In this document: in pieces, positions 14,618-21,406 of the stretch
How the letters are laid out: each line of letters opens with the position of its first letter
Numbering within the stretch: the stretch's first letter is position 1
DNA from: Holophagaceae bacterium
GTDB lineage: Bacteria; Acidobacteriota; Holophagae; Holophagales; Holophagaceae
Direction: 5' to 3'
DNA: 40,593 nucleotides
Assembly: GCA_025361205.1 (NCBI GenBank)
Contig: JANYAS010000070.1
Span: forward strand, 1 to 40,593
Translations under genes and position numbers: made by a program
Notes under the pieces: model-generated
Told to the model about the DNA's origin: nothing
What the model saw: only the letters and a program-made list of their open reading frames with translations
The model's database searches: none

Positions 14618-15798
<1,181 letters not shown>

Positions 15799-15802
<4 letters not shown>

Positions 15803-16419
15803 GCGGACTCCAGATCATGGACACAGAGGATGAAGGCGGAGACCTTCCCGGGATCCTTGCGGCCCGGCGCGGACTCCAGGCGGCTGGCGGCATCTGCGCC
15901 GCGCAGGCGCGAGCGTAGGGCGCCCGGCAGGGCCGAGACGCGGTCCCGGAGGTTCAGGGCGTCAAGTCCTCCCGCCAGCAGGAAATCACCCGGCGGGGGG
16001 AAGGCCATGGCGTGTCGCTGCCCCGATCCGCCCACCACCCCGGTGGCTGAGGCACTGGGCTCCCAGAGGTAGAGGTCCGCAGCCAGGGGGTTCTGGTCGG
16101 GCTCGTCCGCCCAGGGCAGCAGGACGAACAGGCCGGCTTCGCGCAGCCTGCGCACGCCTGCTTTCCGCACCTCGCGCGGCAGGTACGGCTGCACGCGGCG
16201 GAAGCCATGGCGGCGCGCCAGCAGGAGGATTTCCTCGGCGTGACTCGCCACCTGCACCAGCACGGCCCGGTCCAGGTAGGGCTGCGCCACCAAAAGATCG
16301 GTGCAATGCCGCGGGCTCGGTGGATGAGATACAAAACCCAACAGGTCCGCGCCCTGTGCCGCGGCGAAGGCCGCATCCTCGGCCCGAACCAGGCCGCAAA
16401 CCTTGGCCAGGAGGCTCAC
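15799..16419 (-). CDS. trpF: Phosphoribosylanthranilate isomerase, divergent
   Basis: Isomerises phosphoribosylanthranilate to CdRP. The 206-aa barrel keeps the N-terminal KVCGL with catalytic Cys8, the GFVSHPPSPR segment, the GGSGQ phosphate loop and PGRKDPGKVSAFI at the end. Several signatures are altered: the usual QLHG reads QPYL (residues 77-80); the position of the general-acid Asp (LLD in most enzymes) reads LWE with Glu120; and DVSSGVE reads DAASRLE (176-182). The operon position between trpC and trpB with 4-bp overlaps on both sides makes the identity secure, although the motif changes are unusual. Confidence 0.9.
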
Positions 16420-17252
16420 GCGTCCTCCTTCCGGAGGTCTGTGATGATGCGGATGAGGAATCCCCGCGGGTCAGGGCTGCGCATGAGGGCTTCGCCGATG
16501 AGCACGGCGTCGAAGCCGGTTCGCAGGGCCGTTCGCGCATCCTCGGGCGTGGCCAGACCGGACTCGCGGATGAGCACGGCTTCCGGGAAGGCTTCGCGCA
16601 GTCGATCCGCGGTGGGCGCGCCCAACGTGAAGGTGGAGAGGTCGCGGGCATTGATGCCCAGCAGGCGAACGTTTGCCGCCTGGGCGAAGTCCACTTCCGT
16701 CATGTTGTGCAATTCGATCAGGGGTTCGAGACCCCGGGCCCGGGCCGCCTCGGCGAAGGCGGCCGTGTGCTCCTGGAGCACCCGGGCGATGAGTAGCACG
16801 GCCTCGGCCCCGCTCGCCTCGGCCTCGGCAAGCTGGACCTCCGAGATCACGAAGCCCTTGTAGAGCCGCGGCAGGCCGAGTTCCGCCGCCGCCCTGAGAT
16901 GGTCCGCAGAGCCCCGGAAATAAGTAGGTTCAGCGAGAATGGAGAAGGCCGAGGCCCCTCCTTCCAGATAGGCCCGCAGTTGGGGCAGGAGCGGCGTGCC
17001 CTTGGCGAAGGGCCCCAGGGAAGGTGAGGCCTGCTTGTATTCGGCGATCACCGCCCCACCCCGCGCGGCTGCGTCGCGCCGCAGGGCCGCCTCGAAGGGA
17101 CCGGAAGCGAGAAGCCGGGGACGCACCGGCGCAGGCGCGACGGGAAGACCCGCCACGCGAGCCAGCTCGGCGACCAGCACGCGCTGGAGGTGGGAGCTGG
17201 CAGCCAAGCCTGTTCCGCGAACCAGGGCAGCCGGATCCGGCAGCGGGATCAT
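16416..17252 (-). CDS. trpC: Indole-3-glycerol-phosphate synthase
   Basis: Closes the indole ring from CdRP. The 278-aa TIM barrel has VIAEYKQASPSLG with the Glu and Lys of the active site, FSILAEPTYFRGS, LYKGFVIS with the catalytic Lys (normally RKDF, so the Asp is Gly here), LIELHN, INARDLSTF and IRESGL. All catalytic charged residues appear present. The start overlaps the trpD stop by 4 bp and the stop overlaps trpF by 4 bp. It is a single-domain protein, not fused to TrpF as in enterics. Confidence 0.94.
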   Translation of the reverse strand: MIPLPDPAALVRGTGLAASSHLQRVLVAELARVAGLPVAPAPVRPRLLASGPFEAALRRDAAARGGAVIAEYKQASPSLGPFAKGTPLLPQLRAYLEGGASAFSILAEPTYFRGSADHLRAAAELGLPRLYKGFVISEVQLAEAEASGAEAVLLIARVLQEHTAAFAEAARARGLEPLIELHNMTEVDFAQAANVRLLGINARDLSTFTLGAPTADRLREAFPEAVLIRESGLATPEDARTALRTGFDAVLIGEALMRSPDPRGFLIRIITDLRKEDA

Positions 17253-18286
17253 GGGCGCACCTCGGTGGGCAGCGCGAAGGGCAACGGGAATCCGCGATCC
17301 AGGTGAGCTCTGGCTTCCCGCAGTGAAGCGCCCAACCCTTCCAGCCCGGTATTCCGATGCAGGTGGAGCCCCAGGGCCGCCTGAAACGCCACCGCGTCGG
17401 CCACGGCCGGACGGAAATCCGCATGGGAGGCCCCGCCAAATAATCCCCGGGCCACGGCCAGGGCCTCGGCCCGGTCGGCGACCTTGAGGGCGTGACGCGG
17501 CGGCGGGGTGAGTCCCAGGTCGCGGGGCACCAGCACCTGAGGGGCCGCCACCCGCCCCGCCACGACCGCGAGGACGGTGGTGGGGCCCTCGATGGAGGCC
17601 TCGTCAAGGCCCTTTCCTTCCGCATCCTTGCCATGGATCACGAAGGCTCGCCGCAGCGTCGGGCGGCGGGCCAGGGCCCCGGCCATGGGCGCAAGCAGAT
17701 CCTCCCGGGCCACCCCCAACAGTTGCAGCGGGGGCAGGCCGGGGTTTAGCAGAGGACCCAGCAGGTTGAAGATGGTGGGGATACCCAGGCGTCGGCGGAT
17801 CTCCCGCAGGCGGCCCAGCAGCGGGTGGTAGGCCGGGGCGTAGAGGAAAGCGAAGCCCGTTGTCCTCAGGTCCTCCGACAGGTCGGAGCTGGCCCGGGCC
17901 AGGTTGTAGCCCAGGGCCTCCAGCAGGTCCGCGCTGCCGCAGACGCTGGTGGCGGCGCGGTTGCCGTGCTTGACGATGGGCACGCCCAGGTGGGCCAACA
18001 GCAGGGCGGCCAGGGTGCTGAGGTTGGCCGTGGAGGAGCCATCGCCGCCGGTGCCGCAGGTGTCGAGGGCGGAAGCGGGCACCGCCGGAAACGGCACGGC
18101 TACCTCGGACAGTGCTTCGGCGAAGGCCGCCAGTTCATGGGCCTCCGGCACGCGCTGGGCCAGCAGGGCCAAACAGGCGCCCACCAGGAGGGCGTCCGTG
18201 TCCTGGTCGATGAAGATGTGCATCAGTTCCAGAGCGGTGGCCTCGGGCAAGGGTCGGATGGGGTTGTGCGTGGTGAGCAGCGTCAT
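17249..18286 (-). CDS. trpD: Anthranilate phosphoribosyltransferase
   Basis: Transfers phosphoribose from PRPP to anthranilate. The 345-aa protein has the glycine-rich PRPP loop DTCGTGGDGSSTANLST (about residue 79), KHGNRAATSVCGSADLLEAL, and the FLYAPAYHPLL and IFNLLGPLLNPG segments of the family. The frame is open farther upstream, but ATG 18286 overlaps the trpG stop as ATGA and has AAGGGA 8 bp upstream, so it is the start. Confidence 0.95.
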   Translation of the reverse strand: MTLLTTHNPIRPLPEATALELMHIFIDQDTDALLVGACLALLAQRVPEAHELAAFAEALSEVAVPFPAVPASALDTCGTGGDGSSTANLSTLAALLLAHLGVPIVKHGNRAATSVCGSADLLEALGYNLARASSDLSEDLRTTGFAFLYAPAYHPLLGRLREIRRRLGIPTIFNLLGPLLNPGLPPLQLLGVAREDLLAPMAGALARRPTLRRAFVIHGKDAEGKGLDEASIEGPTTVLAVVAGRVAAPQVLVPRDLGLTPPPRHALKVADRAEALAVARGLFGGASHADFRPAVADAVAFQAALGLHLHRNTGLEGLGASLREARAHLDRGFPLPFALPTEVRP

Positions 18287-18861
18287 GGTCGGGATCCCTT
18301 GGCCAGGCGGAGGAAGTTGGCGAGCATGGCCGGACCGTCCGGCGTGAGGATGCTTTCGGGGTGGAACTGCACCCCCCAGCGGGGCAGCTGGCGGTGTTCC
18401 ATGGCCATGATCTCGCCCCCGGGACTGCGGCCCGTGACCCGCCAGCAGGCGGGCAGCGAGGCCGGTTCGGCGATGAGGCTGTGGTAGCGGCCCACGGGCA
18501 GGCCCGCAGGCAGTCCCTCGAAAAGACCGGTGCCATCGTGTTCCAGAGGCGTGGCTTCGCCGTGCAGGGGTTCGAGGGCCCGCGTCACCCTGCCGCCCGT
18601 GGCGGCGGCGAGGGCTTGGTGGCCGAGACAGACGCCCAGCAGGGGTACCCCCCACTCCGATCCAGCCAAGGCCATGTGGGCTGGGCTTTCCGTGGGATGG
18701 CCGGGGCCCGGCGAGAGCACCACGGCCTCGGGCCGGAGGGCCTGCGCCCCTTCGAGCGTGATCGCGTCATGGCGCATGACGCGGACCTCCGCGCCCAGCG
18801 TCTCCAAGGCCTGCACCAGATTGTAGGTGAAGGAATCCAGGGCATCGATGAGGAGGATCAT
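18283..18861 (-). CDS. trpG: Anthranilate synthase, glutamine amidotransferase subunit
   Basis: Class I glutamine amidotransferase that feeds ammonia to TrpE. The 192-aa protein shows the nucleophile Cys in GVCLGHQAL, the oxyanion region LSPGPGHP, VGRYHSL, and the His-Glu pair in WGVQFHPESI. It is separate from trpD, unlike the enteric fusion. It could also serve PabB-type synthesis, but the overlap with trpE (ATGA) and trpD puts it in the trp operon. Confidence 0.95.
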   Translation of the reverse strand: MILLIDALDSFTYNLVQALETLGAEVRVMRHDAITLEGAQALRPEAVVLSPGPGHPTESPAHMALAGSEWGVPLLGVCLGHQALAAATGGRVTRALEPLHGEATPLEHDGTGLFEGLPAGLPVGRYHSLIAEPASLPACWRVTGRSPGGEIMAMEHRQLPRWGVQFHPESILTPDGPAMLANFLRLAKGSRP

Positions 18862-20243
18862 CGGGCCGCTCCGGGCAGCTGCACCCCGAGGGCCTGGGCG
18901 ATGGCGCCCAGCTTGTGCAGGGTTTCGAAGTACTCGGAGGCGGGGTTCGAAGCCCGCACCACGCCTGCGCCGGCCTGGATGTAAGCCACCCCGCCAGTGT
19001 AGACCGCCGTGCGGAGGATGAGGGCCGTATCGAGGATGCCATCGGCCCCCAGCCGCAACAGCACGCCACCGTAGGGCCCCCGGACTTCCTCTTCCAATTC
19101 GGCGATCCGCTGACAGGCACGGAGCTTGGGCGCACCGCTCACGGTGCCAGCGGGGAAGGCCGCCTCCAGGACGTCCAGGGCGTCCACGCCGGGTTTCAGC
19201 TTCGCCTTCACGGTGGTGGTGAGGTGCAGCACATGGCTGGTGCGCTGAAGGGCCAGGGGTCGCTCCACCCGCACGCCACCGGGCAGAGCCACCCGGCCCA
19301 GGTCGTTGCGGGCCAGGTCCACCAGCATCTGGTGCTCGGCCCGTTCCTTGGGATCAAGCTTCAGGGCCTCGAACCGGGCGGTGTCTTCCTCGGCGCTGAG
19401 GCCCCGGGGCACCGTGCCGGCGATGGGCAGGGTTTCGGCCTCGCCGTCTTGCACCCGCACCAACATTTCGGGGGAGGCGCCCACCAGGGCGAAGTCGTCC
19501 CATTCAAGGAGGAATCCGTAGGGACTGGGATTTAGGCGGCGCAGGTGGCGATAGGCCTCCAGGGGCGGGGGCGGATCCTCGACACGGAAGCGCTGGCTGG
19601 GCACTAGTTGGTAAATGTCGCCATCGAGGATCAGTTCCTGGGCCTTCCGCACGCTGCTTTCGTAGGCCTCGCGGGTCATCAGCGCGGTGGCCACGGGCAT
19701 CGACAAGGATGGACCCGGGTCGCGCACCCCCGCCAGCAGCAGGGCCCGGAGGCCGCGCAGGCGCGCAAAACCCGTCTCGGGATCGGGGTCGAGGGTCTGC
19801 AGTTCGGCCACCTGATGCAGGTGGTCGAACACCAGGGCCGTATCGAACCGGCGCACCCAGAAGCCCGGCAGGCCGAGGCTGTTCCGGACGGGGAGCGGCA
19901 GGGTGGGTTCCAGGGCACCTATGGCCTCGAAGCCGAGGTAACCGGCGCAGCCGACGCCCACGGGCAGGCCTTCGCGCAGGGGCGGCAGGGCGGACCCCGG
20001 ATCATCAAGGAAGGATTCCGGCACCCTGCCCGCGAGCCCCCTGAGCGCTGCCACCCAGCCGGTGGCAGGGGCCTCCATCCGGGACTCGGTGGCTCCTTCG
20101 AGCAGCACGAAACTGTGGCGCCCCACCCGCTCTCCCTGGTCGCAGGACTCCAGCAACAGACTCGCGCCCCCGGGCCGAAGGGCGAGGTAGGCCGCGAGGG
20201 GGGTCATCAGATCGGCGGGCAGTGGGTGGCGGATCAAATGCAT
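18858..20243 (-). CDS. trpE: Anthranilate synthase component I
   Basis: Makes anthranilate from chorismate. The protein is 461 aa from ATG 20243; TTG codons at 20261 and 20258 are possible but lie in the terminator tail. The N-terminal SLLLESCDQGERVGRHSFVL carries the LLES motif that binds tryptophan for feedback inhibition. The catalytic domain has DIYQLVPSQRF, PSPYGFLLEWDDFALVGASPE cut across two helices, IAGTVPRG, HQMLVDLARNDLG, GTVSGAPK and YGGVLL. It is the first structural gene, 17 bp after an intrinsic terminator that follows a Trp-rich leader peptide, so it should be controlled by attenuation. Confidence 0.95.
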   Translation of the reverse strand: MHLIRHPLPADLMTPLAAYLALRPGGASLLLESCDQGERVGRHSFVLLEGATESRMEAPATGWVAALRGLAGRVPESFLDDPGSALPPLREGLPVGVGCAGYLGFEAIGALEPTLPLPVRNSLGLPGFWVRRFDTALVFDHLHQVAELQTLDPDPETGFARLRGLRALLLAGVRDPGPSLSMPVATALMTREAYESSVRKAQELILDGDIYQLVPSQRFRVEDPPPPLEAYRHLRRLNPSPYGFLLEWDDFALVGASPEMLVRVQDGEAETLPIAGTVPRGLSAEEDTARFEALKLDPKERAEHQMLVDLARNDLGRVALPGGVRVERPLALQRTSHVLHLTTTVKAKLKPGVDALDVLEAAFPAGTVSGAPKLRACQRIAELEEEVRGPYGGVLLRLGADGILDTALILRTAVYTGGVAYIQAGAGVVRASNPASEYFETLHKLGAIAQALGVQLPGAAR

Positions 20244-20259
20244 GGTTTCATCCAACAAC

Positions 20260-20287
20260 AAAAAAGCCCGACCAGAAGGTCGGGCTT
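20260..20287 (-). terminator. trp attenuator terminator (3:4 hairpin)
   Basis: On the minus strand AAGCCCGACC-TTCT-GGTCGGGCTT followed by a run of six T: a textbook intrinsic terminator with 10-bp arms. It lies between the leader peptide stop and trpE, so it must be read through for the operon to be expressed. Confidence 0.9.
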
Positions 20288-20353
20288 GGAAGGTCCGGGG
20301 TGGCGTGGGCCGCTAGGCCTCGCACATGGAGCCATCCAAGCCCACACGCCACC
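20282..20353 (-). promoter_or_regulatory. trp attenuator: competing leader RNA stems
   Basis: Segment 1 (20340-20353, which includes the tandem Trp codons at 20349-20354 apart from one base) pairs with segment 2 (20299-20310) over 12 bp with a 2-nt bulge. This is the classic 1:2 stem that lets the terminator form. Two candidate antiterminators are visible: 20336-20343 with 20282-20289 (8 bp perfect, blocking the 5' terminator arm), and 20292-20299 with 20267-20273 (7 bp with a bulge, blocking the 3' arm). Which one operates is inference. Confidence 0.75.
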
Positions 20354-20405
20354 AATAGCCCCCGTGAAGGCGGCCCTGGAGGAGGGACGAAAAGGAAAGC
20401 TGCAT
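20313..20405 (-). CDS. trpL: trp operon leader peptide
   Basis: A 30-codon frame from ATG 20405 to TAG 20313-20315 encodes a peptide beginning MQLSFSSLLQGRLHGGYWWR, with tandem Trp at codons 18 and 19. An in-frame stop lies shortly upstream, fixing the start. No Shine-Dalgarno sequence is seen, and the predicted -10 box lies only 7 bp before the ATG, so the leader may be translated from a leaderless transcript. Ribosome stalling at the Trp codons when charged tRNA-Trp is scarce would disrupt the 1:2 stem and prevent termination before trpE. Confidence 0.85.
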   Translation of the reverse strand: MQLSFSSLLQGRLHGGYWWRVGLDGSMCEA

Positions 20406-20412
20406 GGAAGCG

Positions 20413-20442
20413 ATGAAACCCGGTTAGGGCAGGTCCTGTCAA
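20413..20442 (-). promoter_or_regulatory. Putative trp promoter
   Basis: On the minus strand TTGACA (20442-20437) is a perfect -35 box, with TTTCAT (20418-20413) as a weak -10 at 18-bp spacing. Transcription would begin at or next to the ATG of the leader peptide. The promoter sits in the gap shared with the divergent membrane-protein gene. Confidence 0.6.
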
Positions 20443-20476
20443 GTGTGGTTTGATGAGAGATTGCTTGCGGATAGCC

Positions 20477-21406
20477 ATGGAACTCGAAGAACGCCCCACG
20501 ACCATTCTTACCGAAGAGGCACTGACCCCCCGAGGGCCCTGGGGTTTCATGTCCTATGCTCTGGCCGGCGGATTCACGCGCTGGGGGTGGGGATTGATTC
20601 TCGGCTGGATGCTGGTCCTGCTGGGCCCCGCCCTGGGCTGGGCGGGCCACCTTCGTCGGGCGGCGGCCTGGAGCGCCCTGCCCGCGCATTGGGGCGAGCA
20701 GATCACCACCCGCGACCTCTGGGAAATCTGGGAGAACGGCGGCATCAAGGACCGGTTGCTGAATTCCCCCACGGTGCATCTCTTCGGCCTGGGTCTCGTC
20801 ATCGTGCTTTGGTGCGGGTGGCGCATGCAGGCGGAGGCCGCTGGCCAGAAGGCTCGATTGGGCGCTTGGCTATTGGGCGCGCTGGACACGGTAATCATCG
20901 GCTTTCTCCCCCTGGGAATCACCGCGTGGCTGGTGGACACCAGCCTGGCGTGGGCCGGCGGACTGGGGCTCGACGGCCTTGGCTGGCTGGCGTTTGTCGG
21001 ACGTCCCCTGCTGTGGATGGCCCTGGTCGCCACTCTGAATCTCCAGTGGTGGTTCTGCCGCCTGGGGCGCGCCGCGGGACTATCCCGGGGCTACGGTGCC
21101 CACCTGGGGGACAGCTTCCTTCGCCTCTGGTCGCATCCCGTCCAATGGGGCCTGATCGCGCTGGGCGGGGCTGCGCTCCGATCCCTACTGCCCTTCCTGG
21201 TGCTGCTGCTGGCCTGGCGCATGGGGGGAGGCACCACCTTCCGCGTGTGGCTGTTCCTGCTGCTTCAGCTGGTCGTCACCGCCCTCAACGGTTGGCTCAT
21301 GGGCTGGCTACTCCGCACGACGGCCCTCTACTGGATCCACGACGCCACAATCAGGGACGTCCGCGCGGCCCTCAAGGATGTTCACCTTGCAACTCAAGCC
21401 ATCTAG
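20477..21406 (+). CDS. Multi-pass membrane protein of unknown function
   Basis: A 309-aa protein with a short cytoplasmic start and about six hydrophobic segments (for example WGLILGWMLVLLGPALGWAG, LFGLGLVIVLWCGW, GLIALGGAALRSLLPFLVLL and WLFLLLQLVVTALNGWLMGW) and polar linkers containing WEIWENGG. No family recognised. ATG 20477 is taken as start; ATG 20453 and TTG 20450 are in frame, and none has a strong ribosome site. It is divergent from the trp leader, and its 3' end overlaps the next gene by 29 bp, suggesting co-expression with the nucleotidase genes. Confidence 0.6.
   Translation: MELEERPTTILTEEALTPRGPWGFMSYALAGGFTRWGWGLILGWMLVLLGPALGWAGHLRRAAAWSALPAHWGEQITTRDLWEIWENGGIKDRLLNSPTVHLFGLGLVIVLWCGWRMQAEAAGQKARLGAWLLGALDTVIIGFLPLGITAWLVDTSLAWAGGLGLDGLGWLAFVGRPLLWMALVATLNLQWWFCRLGRAAGLSRGYGAHLGDSFLRLWSHPVQWGLIALGGAALRSLLPFLVLLLAWRMGGGTTFRVWLFLLLQLVVTALNGWLMGWLLRTTALYWIHDATIRDVRAALKDVHLATQAI

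Follow-up and report, generated by a model that had tools for sequence, protein, structure and literature searches.

A predicted leaderless, ribosome-mediated transcription attenuator preceding the trp operon in Geothrix and its relatives

The region preceding the trp operon in a 40,593-nucleotide stretch of Holophagaceae DNA, referred to over its full length as the window, can be interpreted with considerable confidence as a ribosome-mediated transcription attenuator of that operon, predicted to be leaderless, with an RNA whose first nucleotide would be the A of the leader's start codon ATG. On the basis of sequence comparison and folding, the ribosome-mediated nature of the element is very likely, while its leaderless nature is probable. 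The -35 element, the leader open reading frame (ORF) with its tandem tryptophan codons (WW), the terminator and the trp operon all lie on the minus strand (Table 1), with the short ORF located upstream of trpE and the intrinsic terminator situated between the two. A consensus -35 element, a 30-codon peptide with tryptophan at codons 18 and 19 and a 10-bp intrinsic terminator had been named in an initial annotation of this DNA, and each of these parts was found. The window is assigned here to the genus Geothrix of the Holophagaceae (Acidobacteriota). Some genomes of the same genus as the window share identical leader regions with named Geothrix genomes, for example L028 (G008) with L065 (Geothrix fermentans).

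Table 1. Features of the trp leader region and operon in the window
Feature	Positions	Strand	Basis and remarks
-35 element TTGACA (consensus)	20437..20442	-	Read in sequence; 29-32 nt from ATG in 55/55 distinct loci
Predicted -10 element TTTCAT	20413..20418	-	18-nt spacer after -35; 7 nt before ATG
Leader start ATG, also predicted transcript 5' end	20403..20405	-	ATG in 55/55 loci; 5' end predicted
Leader ORF, 30 codons + TAG	20313..20405	-	Frame 20405-20316, TAG 20315-20313; peptide MQLSFSSLLQGRLHGGYWWRVGLDGSMCEA
Tandem Trp codons 18-19	20349..20354	-	Read in sequence; recur in relatives
12-bp WW stem, 5' strand of outer 8 pairs	20346..20353	-	Predicted fold; no covariation
12-bp WW stem, inner 4 pairs, 5' strand GGGC	20340..20343	-	Overlaps antiterminator arm
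12-bp WW stem, 3' strand	20299..20310	-	Predicted fold; no covariation
Antiterminator 5' arm GGGCUUGGAuGG	20332..20343	-	Within ORF, from third base of codon 21 through codon 25
Antiterminator 3' arm	20282..20292	-	Overlaps terminator 5' arm
Intrinsic terminator, 10 pairs, loop 4, then T	20264..20287	-	Terminator scan; conserved
trpE, first gene behind attenuator	18858..20243	-	PF00425, PF04715; ATG 20243
Rest of operon: trpG, trpD, trpC, trpF, trpB	14618..18861	-	PF00117, PF00591, PF00218, PF00697, PF00291; names read from Pfam matches

On its other side the attenuator is adjoined by a divergently encoded membrane-type protein without a Pfam match (20450-21406, plus strand), and a similar protein encoded divergently from trpE was seen by eye in L068 (756-1757). 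Inspection of L014, L020 and L021 by eye also revealed a GC-rich insert, approximately 120 bp in length, past the 3' end of trpE, beside an apparent repeated trpG start.

Conservation was assessed among the upstream regions of seventy-nine Holophagaceae and Lysobacteraceae trpE loci (L001-L079), thirty of which derived from one search and forty-nine of seventy from a second, with distant TrpE or fragments (L080-L085 and L087-L100) left out. A pattern comprising TTGACA, a start codon 20 to 33 nt further on and an ORF of 20 to 45 codons incorporating W.?W matched 78/79 loci, representing fifty-five distinct regions and twenty-three duplicates. As TTGACA served as the search anchor its presence is partly by construction, while finding it in 78/79 loci is not, and where several in-frame starts were present the ATG at 28 to 33 nt from the -35 element was chosen. 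The layout recurs in all seventy-nine regions when L079, in which the Trp codons are separated and which was recognised by eye, is included. The ATG, the Trp codons, the frame and the terminator are kept in all fifty-five distinct loci, with leader ORFs of 28 to 31 codons.

The promoter geometry argues for a transcript that would start at the ATG. The distance between the -35 element and the ATG is 31 nt in forty-two and 30 nt in eleven of the fifty-five loci, while the spacer between the -35 and -10 elements has diverged (mean pairwise identity 0.45) and the 7 nt preceding the ATG take twenty-nine different forms. Spacing is conserved without conservation of sequence, as expected if the promoter is positioned for transcription from the ATG. 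At positions -13 to -8, TTTCAT occurs in thirty-two loci, with GTTTCA (a one-base shift; 7 loci), TTTGAT (4 loci), TGAGAT (4 loci) and others (8 loci) accounting for the rest. TTTCAT is a weak match to TATAAT, and because it carries T rather than A at position 2, where the promoter scan requires A, no promoter was called in the leader region; the -10 element is thus weak, as the initial annotation had stated. An in-frame TAA lies upstream of the leader ATG and no further in-frame ATG, GTG or TTG precedes the WW codons in the window (both by eye), and the ATG at 20405 is therefore the sole usual start from which these codons would be read. No Shine-Dalgarno (SD) sequence is visible by eye before this ATG, and 53/55 loci contain none of the words GGAG, GAGG, AGGA or AAGG between positions -18 and -4, in agreement with the earlier reading. 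A -10-like element, albeit weak, about 10 nt before a start codon without an SD sequence, together with the fixed gap behind a diverged spacer, supports the leaderless reading. In the genome of the window (G000), TTGACA-N29-32-ATG occurs twenty-five times versus seven in a reversed control, and there may perhaps be more leaderless genes in this genome.

The same attenuator could instead carry a short 5' untranslated stretch, with transcription starting elsewhere than at the ATG and the leader being translated from a non-SD start. The weakness of the -10 element and the silence of the promoter scan are consistent with this, as is a purine run, such as AGGGG, which directly precedes the ATG in a few rows and falls outside the four SD-like words. 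However, the invariably 29 to 32 nt gap across a spacer that is only 45 % alike on average, and the occurrence of SD-like words in 2/55 loci, render this arrangement unlikely, and a leaderless transcript is preferred.

The codon composition of the leader was counted in favour of a translated ORF. Across the fifty-five loci, G+C at codon positions 1/2/3 is 0.68/0.55/0.845 in leader codons 2-16, which resembles that in trpE (0.77/0.49/0.84). The pattern is less trpE-like when codons 2-30 are considered (0.62/0.64/0.86), where G+C at position 2 is not below that at position 1, which counts against a translation pattern. Among the forty-three rows with a leader of 30 codons, the second codon position is the most variable and the third the least in codons 2-16, and the peptide itself is therefore not visibly selected; conservation in these codons extends to frame and codon style but not to the peptide.

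Folding was compared in an alignment of fifty-six regions (the fifty-five distinct regions and L079), extending from the Trp codons through the terminator. The terminator is conserved and covarying, with 99.6 % of its cells paired and twenty cells with a double change in the alignment of relatives, in accordance with its initial annotation. Two terminator-like sites occur in 901 bases over both strands, where shuffles led to an expectation of 0.7. The covarying switch, which the initial annotation had missed, is an antiterminator within the ORF, where codons 21-25 (GGGCUUGGAuGG) pair with the 5' terminator arm. Its eleven pairs are formed in 96.4 % of cells and both sides have changed in fourteen cells, with each of these two values matched by 0/500 shuffles, while 41/500 had at least as many doubly changed pairs (three); the shuffles ignore kinship, and the counts are to be read as support, not as probabilities. 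Two of the three doubly changed pairs vary in Lysobacteraceae rows only, and the events are therefore fewer than the cells. Pairing falls to 64.9 % or less when the partner is slid along the sequence. The window has CUUGG/CCAAG in this helix, with CUCGG/CCGAG in most rows. As long as the 3' arm has yet to be transcribed, the 5' arm is predicted to pair with other parts of the RNA (mean >0.5) in 53/56 rows, the exceptions being L067, L069 and L077. The conserved Trp codons, frame and terminator and this covarying antiterminator together support the attenuator reading.

It is quite unlikely that the terminated leader, beside cis attenuation, also yields a trans-acting small RNA or peptide similar to rnTrpL/peTrpL of Sinorhizobium meliloti. 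Trans roles are reported for the latter in passages of PMC7298713, and the conservation of leader length (28-31 codons) and of a large part of the C-terminal half would be in keeping with such a product; nevertheless, the antiterminator pairing accounts for codons 21-25, and codons 2-16 vary freely. Control of the terminator by a factor other than the ribosome (T-box, riboswitch or RNA-binding protein), with an incidental ORF, is highly improbable given that no Rfam family reaches its gathering score in the window, that the Trp codons directly precede the antiterminator arm in fifty-five loci and that codons 2-16 show the codon-position G+C pattern described above.

In the favoured attenuator model, a ribosome would load at the 5'-terminal AUG and trail the RNA polymerase. 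On shortage of charged tRNA-Trp, the ribosome would stall once the first Trp codon occupies its A site, and its leading edge would end exactly where the antiterminator arm starts, so that GGGCUUGGAuGG would be left free to pair with the terminator 5' arm and transcription would read through into trpEGDCFB. When tryptophan is plentiful, the ribosome would reach the stop codon and be released, the terminator hairpin would form and transcription would end before trpE. This was modelled by masking an assumed ribosome footprint that reaches 14 nt upstream and 13 nt downstream of the first nucleotide in the P-site codon. For the window RNA, the predicted terminator probability is 0.95 without a ribosome and 0.99 with the ribosome at the stop codon, whereas a masked ribosome whose A site holds the first Trp codon gives 0.98 for the antiterminator and 0.04 for the terminator. 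With the second Trp codon in the A site, the terminator (0.98) again exceeds the antiterminator (0.43); a ribosome stalled here would mask some of the antiterminator arm, and only the first Trp codon therefore works in this model. Across the fifty-five loci, a first-Trp stall would leave 0 nt (15/55) or 3 nt (40/55) between the assumed leading edge of the stalled ribosome and the antiterminator arm. At equilibrium with this stall, the terminator is still above 0.5 in thirty-three loci and the antiterminator exceeds 0.5 in only twenty-two. Before the 3' arm of the terminator is made, the antiterminator is predicted to form in 54/55 loci without a ribosome and in 49/55 with the ribosome at the stop codon. 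As it would form early with or without a ribosome, timing must decide the outcome, and since equilibrium folding ignores timing, the masked-ribosome folding constitutes a plausibility test. Pairing, covariation and this model point to an antiterminator that excludes the terminator and would be exposed by a Trp stall, clearly so for the window.

A 12-bp stem including the WW codons had also been proposed as part of the switch. It may form in the window, as eight and four pairs separated by a 2-nt bulge, with nearly all of its pairs present in most Geothrix rows, but it is not visibly held by evolution. Over fifty distinct rows, 82.3 % of its cells are paired, which equals the shuffled mean, and four cells show a double change, which is fewer than the 7.2 in shuffles. 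Although its pairing beats that of slid versions (at most 59.3 %), it lacks covariation and is not supported as a conserved switch. Of the features proposed earlier for a test of covariation among relatives, WW is kept and the terminator covaries, while the WW stem does not.

The trp leader of Escherichia coli comprises an SD sequence and a 14-aa leader with tandem Trp codons, with the antiterminator arm located after the stop codon and mutually exclusive antiterminator and terminator structures preceding trpE. The window has tandem Trp codons and mutually exclusive structures as well, but its antiterminator arm lies within the ORF, at a distance of 5 nt from the last Trp codon. The Rfam Trp_leader family (RF00513) scores 20.6 bits in the window, below its gathering score of 41, and as several unrelated families outscore it among the low-scoring Rfam matches, these provide no evidence. 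In S. meliloti, a leader ORF with Trp codons likewise precedes trpE (trpL/rnTrpL) and functions in attenuation, and passages of PMC7298713 describe the trpL RNA as starting at its ATG; a leaderless trp attenuator therefore has precedent and is not new. This comparison is by description only, with a leader of 14 aa in S. meliloti versus 28-31 codons here, in a different phylum. The leaderless part of the initial annotation is supported, while its view that such an attenuator would be unusual is tempered by this precedent. According to parts of PMC4633059, mycobacteria, in which leaderless mRNAs are common, carry candidate attenuating upstream ORFs, with a cis role that is still speculative; these differ from the window leader in their cysteine codons and in belonging to the Actinobacteria. 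Leaderless genes make up 9.7-19.4 % of the genes of three Acidobacteria in a genome survey (PMC3160421, in its Table 2). Sections of two further reports indicate that predicted attenuators of Acidobacteria were almost all left without an assigned function (PMC2965389) and that leader ORFs were counted in this phylum, with trp leaders apparently not among them (PMC4833913). No description of trp leader-peptide attenuation in Acidobacteriota was found in the literature searched, where comparative studies (Lopatovskaya 2010; Vitreschak 2004) might hold an earlier prediction. The mechanism is thus of a known kind and the Acidobacteriota a new place for it, for which the present set provides a concrete, testable case.

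A covariance model was built from the alignment, the rows of which match by construction; G482, G463 and G206 are not among these rows. As the searches used stricter filters and scored 10 to 20 candidates per genome, misses are possible in the following counts, from which weak matches (below 35 bits in the phylum search) are left out. The own genome and twenty-one same-genus genomes score at least 94 bits, with no genus member among the misses listed, and two of five other same-family genomes match (G167, 64 bits; G206, 56 bits). In the phylum search, where 58/297 genomes were matched at E up to 0.1, no other genome exceeds 35 bits. Within the Lysobacteraceae, 5/198 genomes, the centre genome included, score at least 66 bits, the next scoring 37, and the centre genome alone reaches at least 66 bits in a class sample of 369.

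The Holophagaceae-type trpE with a leaderless-type attenuator occurs in a few Lysobacteraceae (L071-L076, L086, L203, L206 and L207), and the upstream regions of the Lysobacteraceae copies keep TTGACA, a gap of 29-31 nt, the ATG, WW and the terminator. In L076, the one locus read, trpG and trpD come next after this trpE. In a TrpE tree of forty-three rows, rooted at the midpoint with long outgroup branches, nine Lysobacteraceae copies are nested within the Holophagaceae, with supports of 97/91 for the grouping with L070 and then 99/96 with L079, although the nine copies join only at 89/58. Seven Lysobacteraceae-type genomes that carry the leader were searched, and in these the second TrpE-like match reaches no more than 34-39 % identity; no native-type TrpE was seen. 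Most of fifty-eight other Lysobacteraceae sampled have a TrpE approximately 40 % identical to the Holophagaceae type, which suggests that the native trpE was replaced in the former. Vertical inheritance of the Lysobacteraceae copies is not supported by the tree nesting and the identities of the second TrpE. Given the nesting and the kept upstream layout, the operon start likely moved together with the attenuator, from a Holophagaceae-like donor to a few Lysobacteraceae, which is probably a case of an attenuator passing from one phylum to another.

Other trpE leaders were observed elsewhere in the Acidobacteriota. Seventy of the seventy-seven Holophagaceae genomes sampled have a TrpE-like match, and eight encode a second TrpE type that is 40-44 % identical (L221-L228). 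Each of these eight loci contains a short, Trp-rich ORF together with a terminator (the latter found by script in six and by eye in two), and an in-frame start is preceded at 5-10 nt by GGAG or AGGA as an SD-like word (8/8 by eye, versus 2/55 with SD-like words in the set above). Their leaders start with GTG (5), TTG (2) or ATG (1) and their sequences are unlike that of the window leader, with which they have in common the Trp-rich short ORF and a terminator before trpE. Leaderless and SD-led attenuators of the same gene within one family thus offer a natural comparison. A Trp leader is also present in two members of other families (G058 and G055), while none was found by the script in G046. 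A phylum sample included 124 genomes with a strong TrpE match, 110 of which are outside the Holophagaceae, and from these sixty were hand-chosen to represent thirty-nine families. Trp codons and a terminator precede trpE in 18/60, distributed over twelve families (script; loci within L237-L296), compared to 0/60 antisense strands and 2/300 mononucleotide shuffles, with some of the eighteen calls being weak (e.g. L256). On balance, we lean towards the view that trpE leader-peptide attenuation is widespread in the Acidobacteriota, with leaderless and SD-led modes in one family, and that the leaderless one crossed phyla with its operon into the Lysobacteraceae as a self-contained regulatory unit, which would work there since a 5'-terminal AUG needs no host-specific SD sequence. 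L230 and L231, from other Acidobacteriota families, likewise show a short, Trp-rich ORF plus a terminator upstream of trpE. In several of the other-family leaders (e.g. L230, by eye), a possible antiterminator arm also follows immediately behind the Trp codons, within the ORF or at its end.
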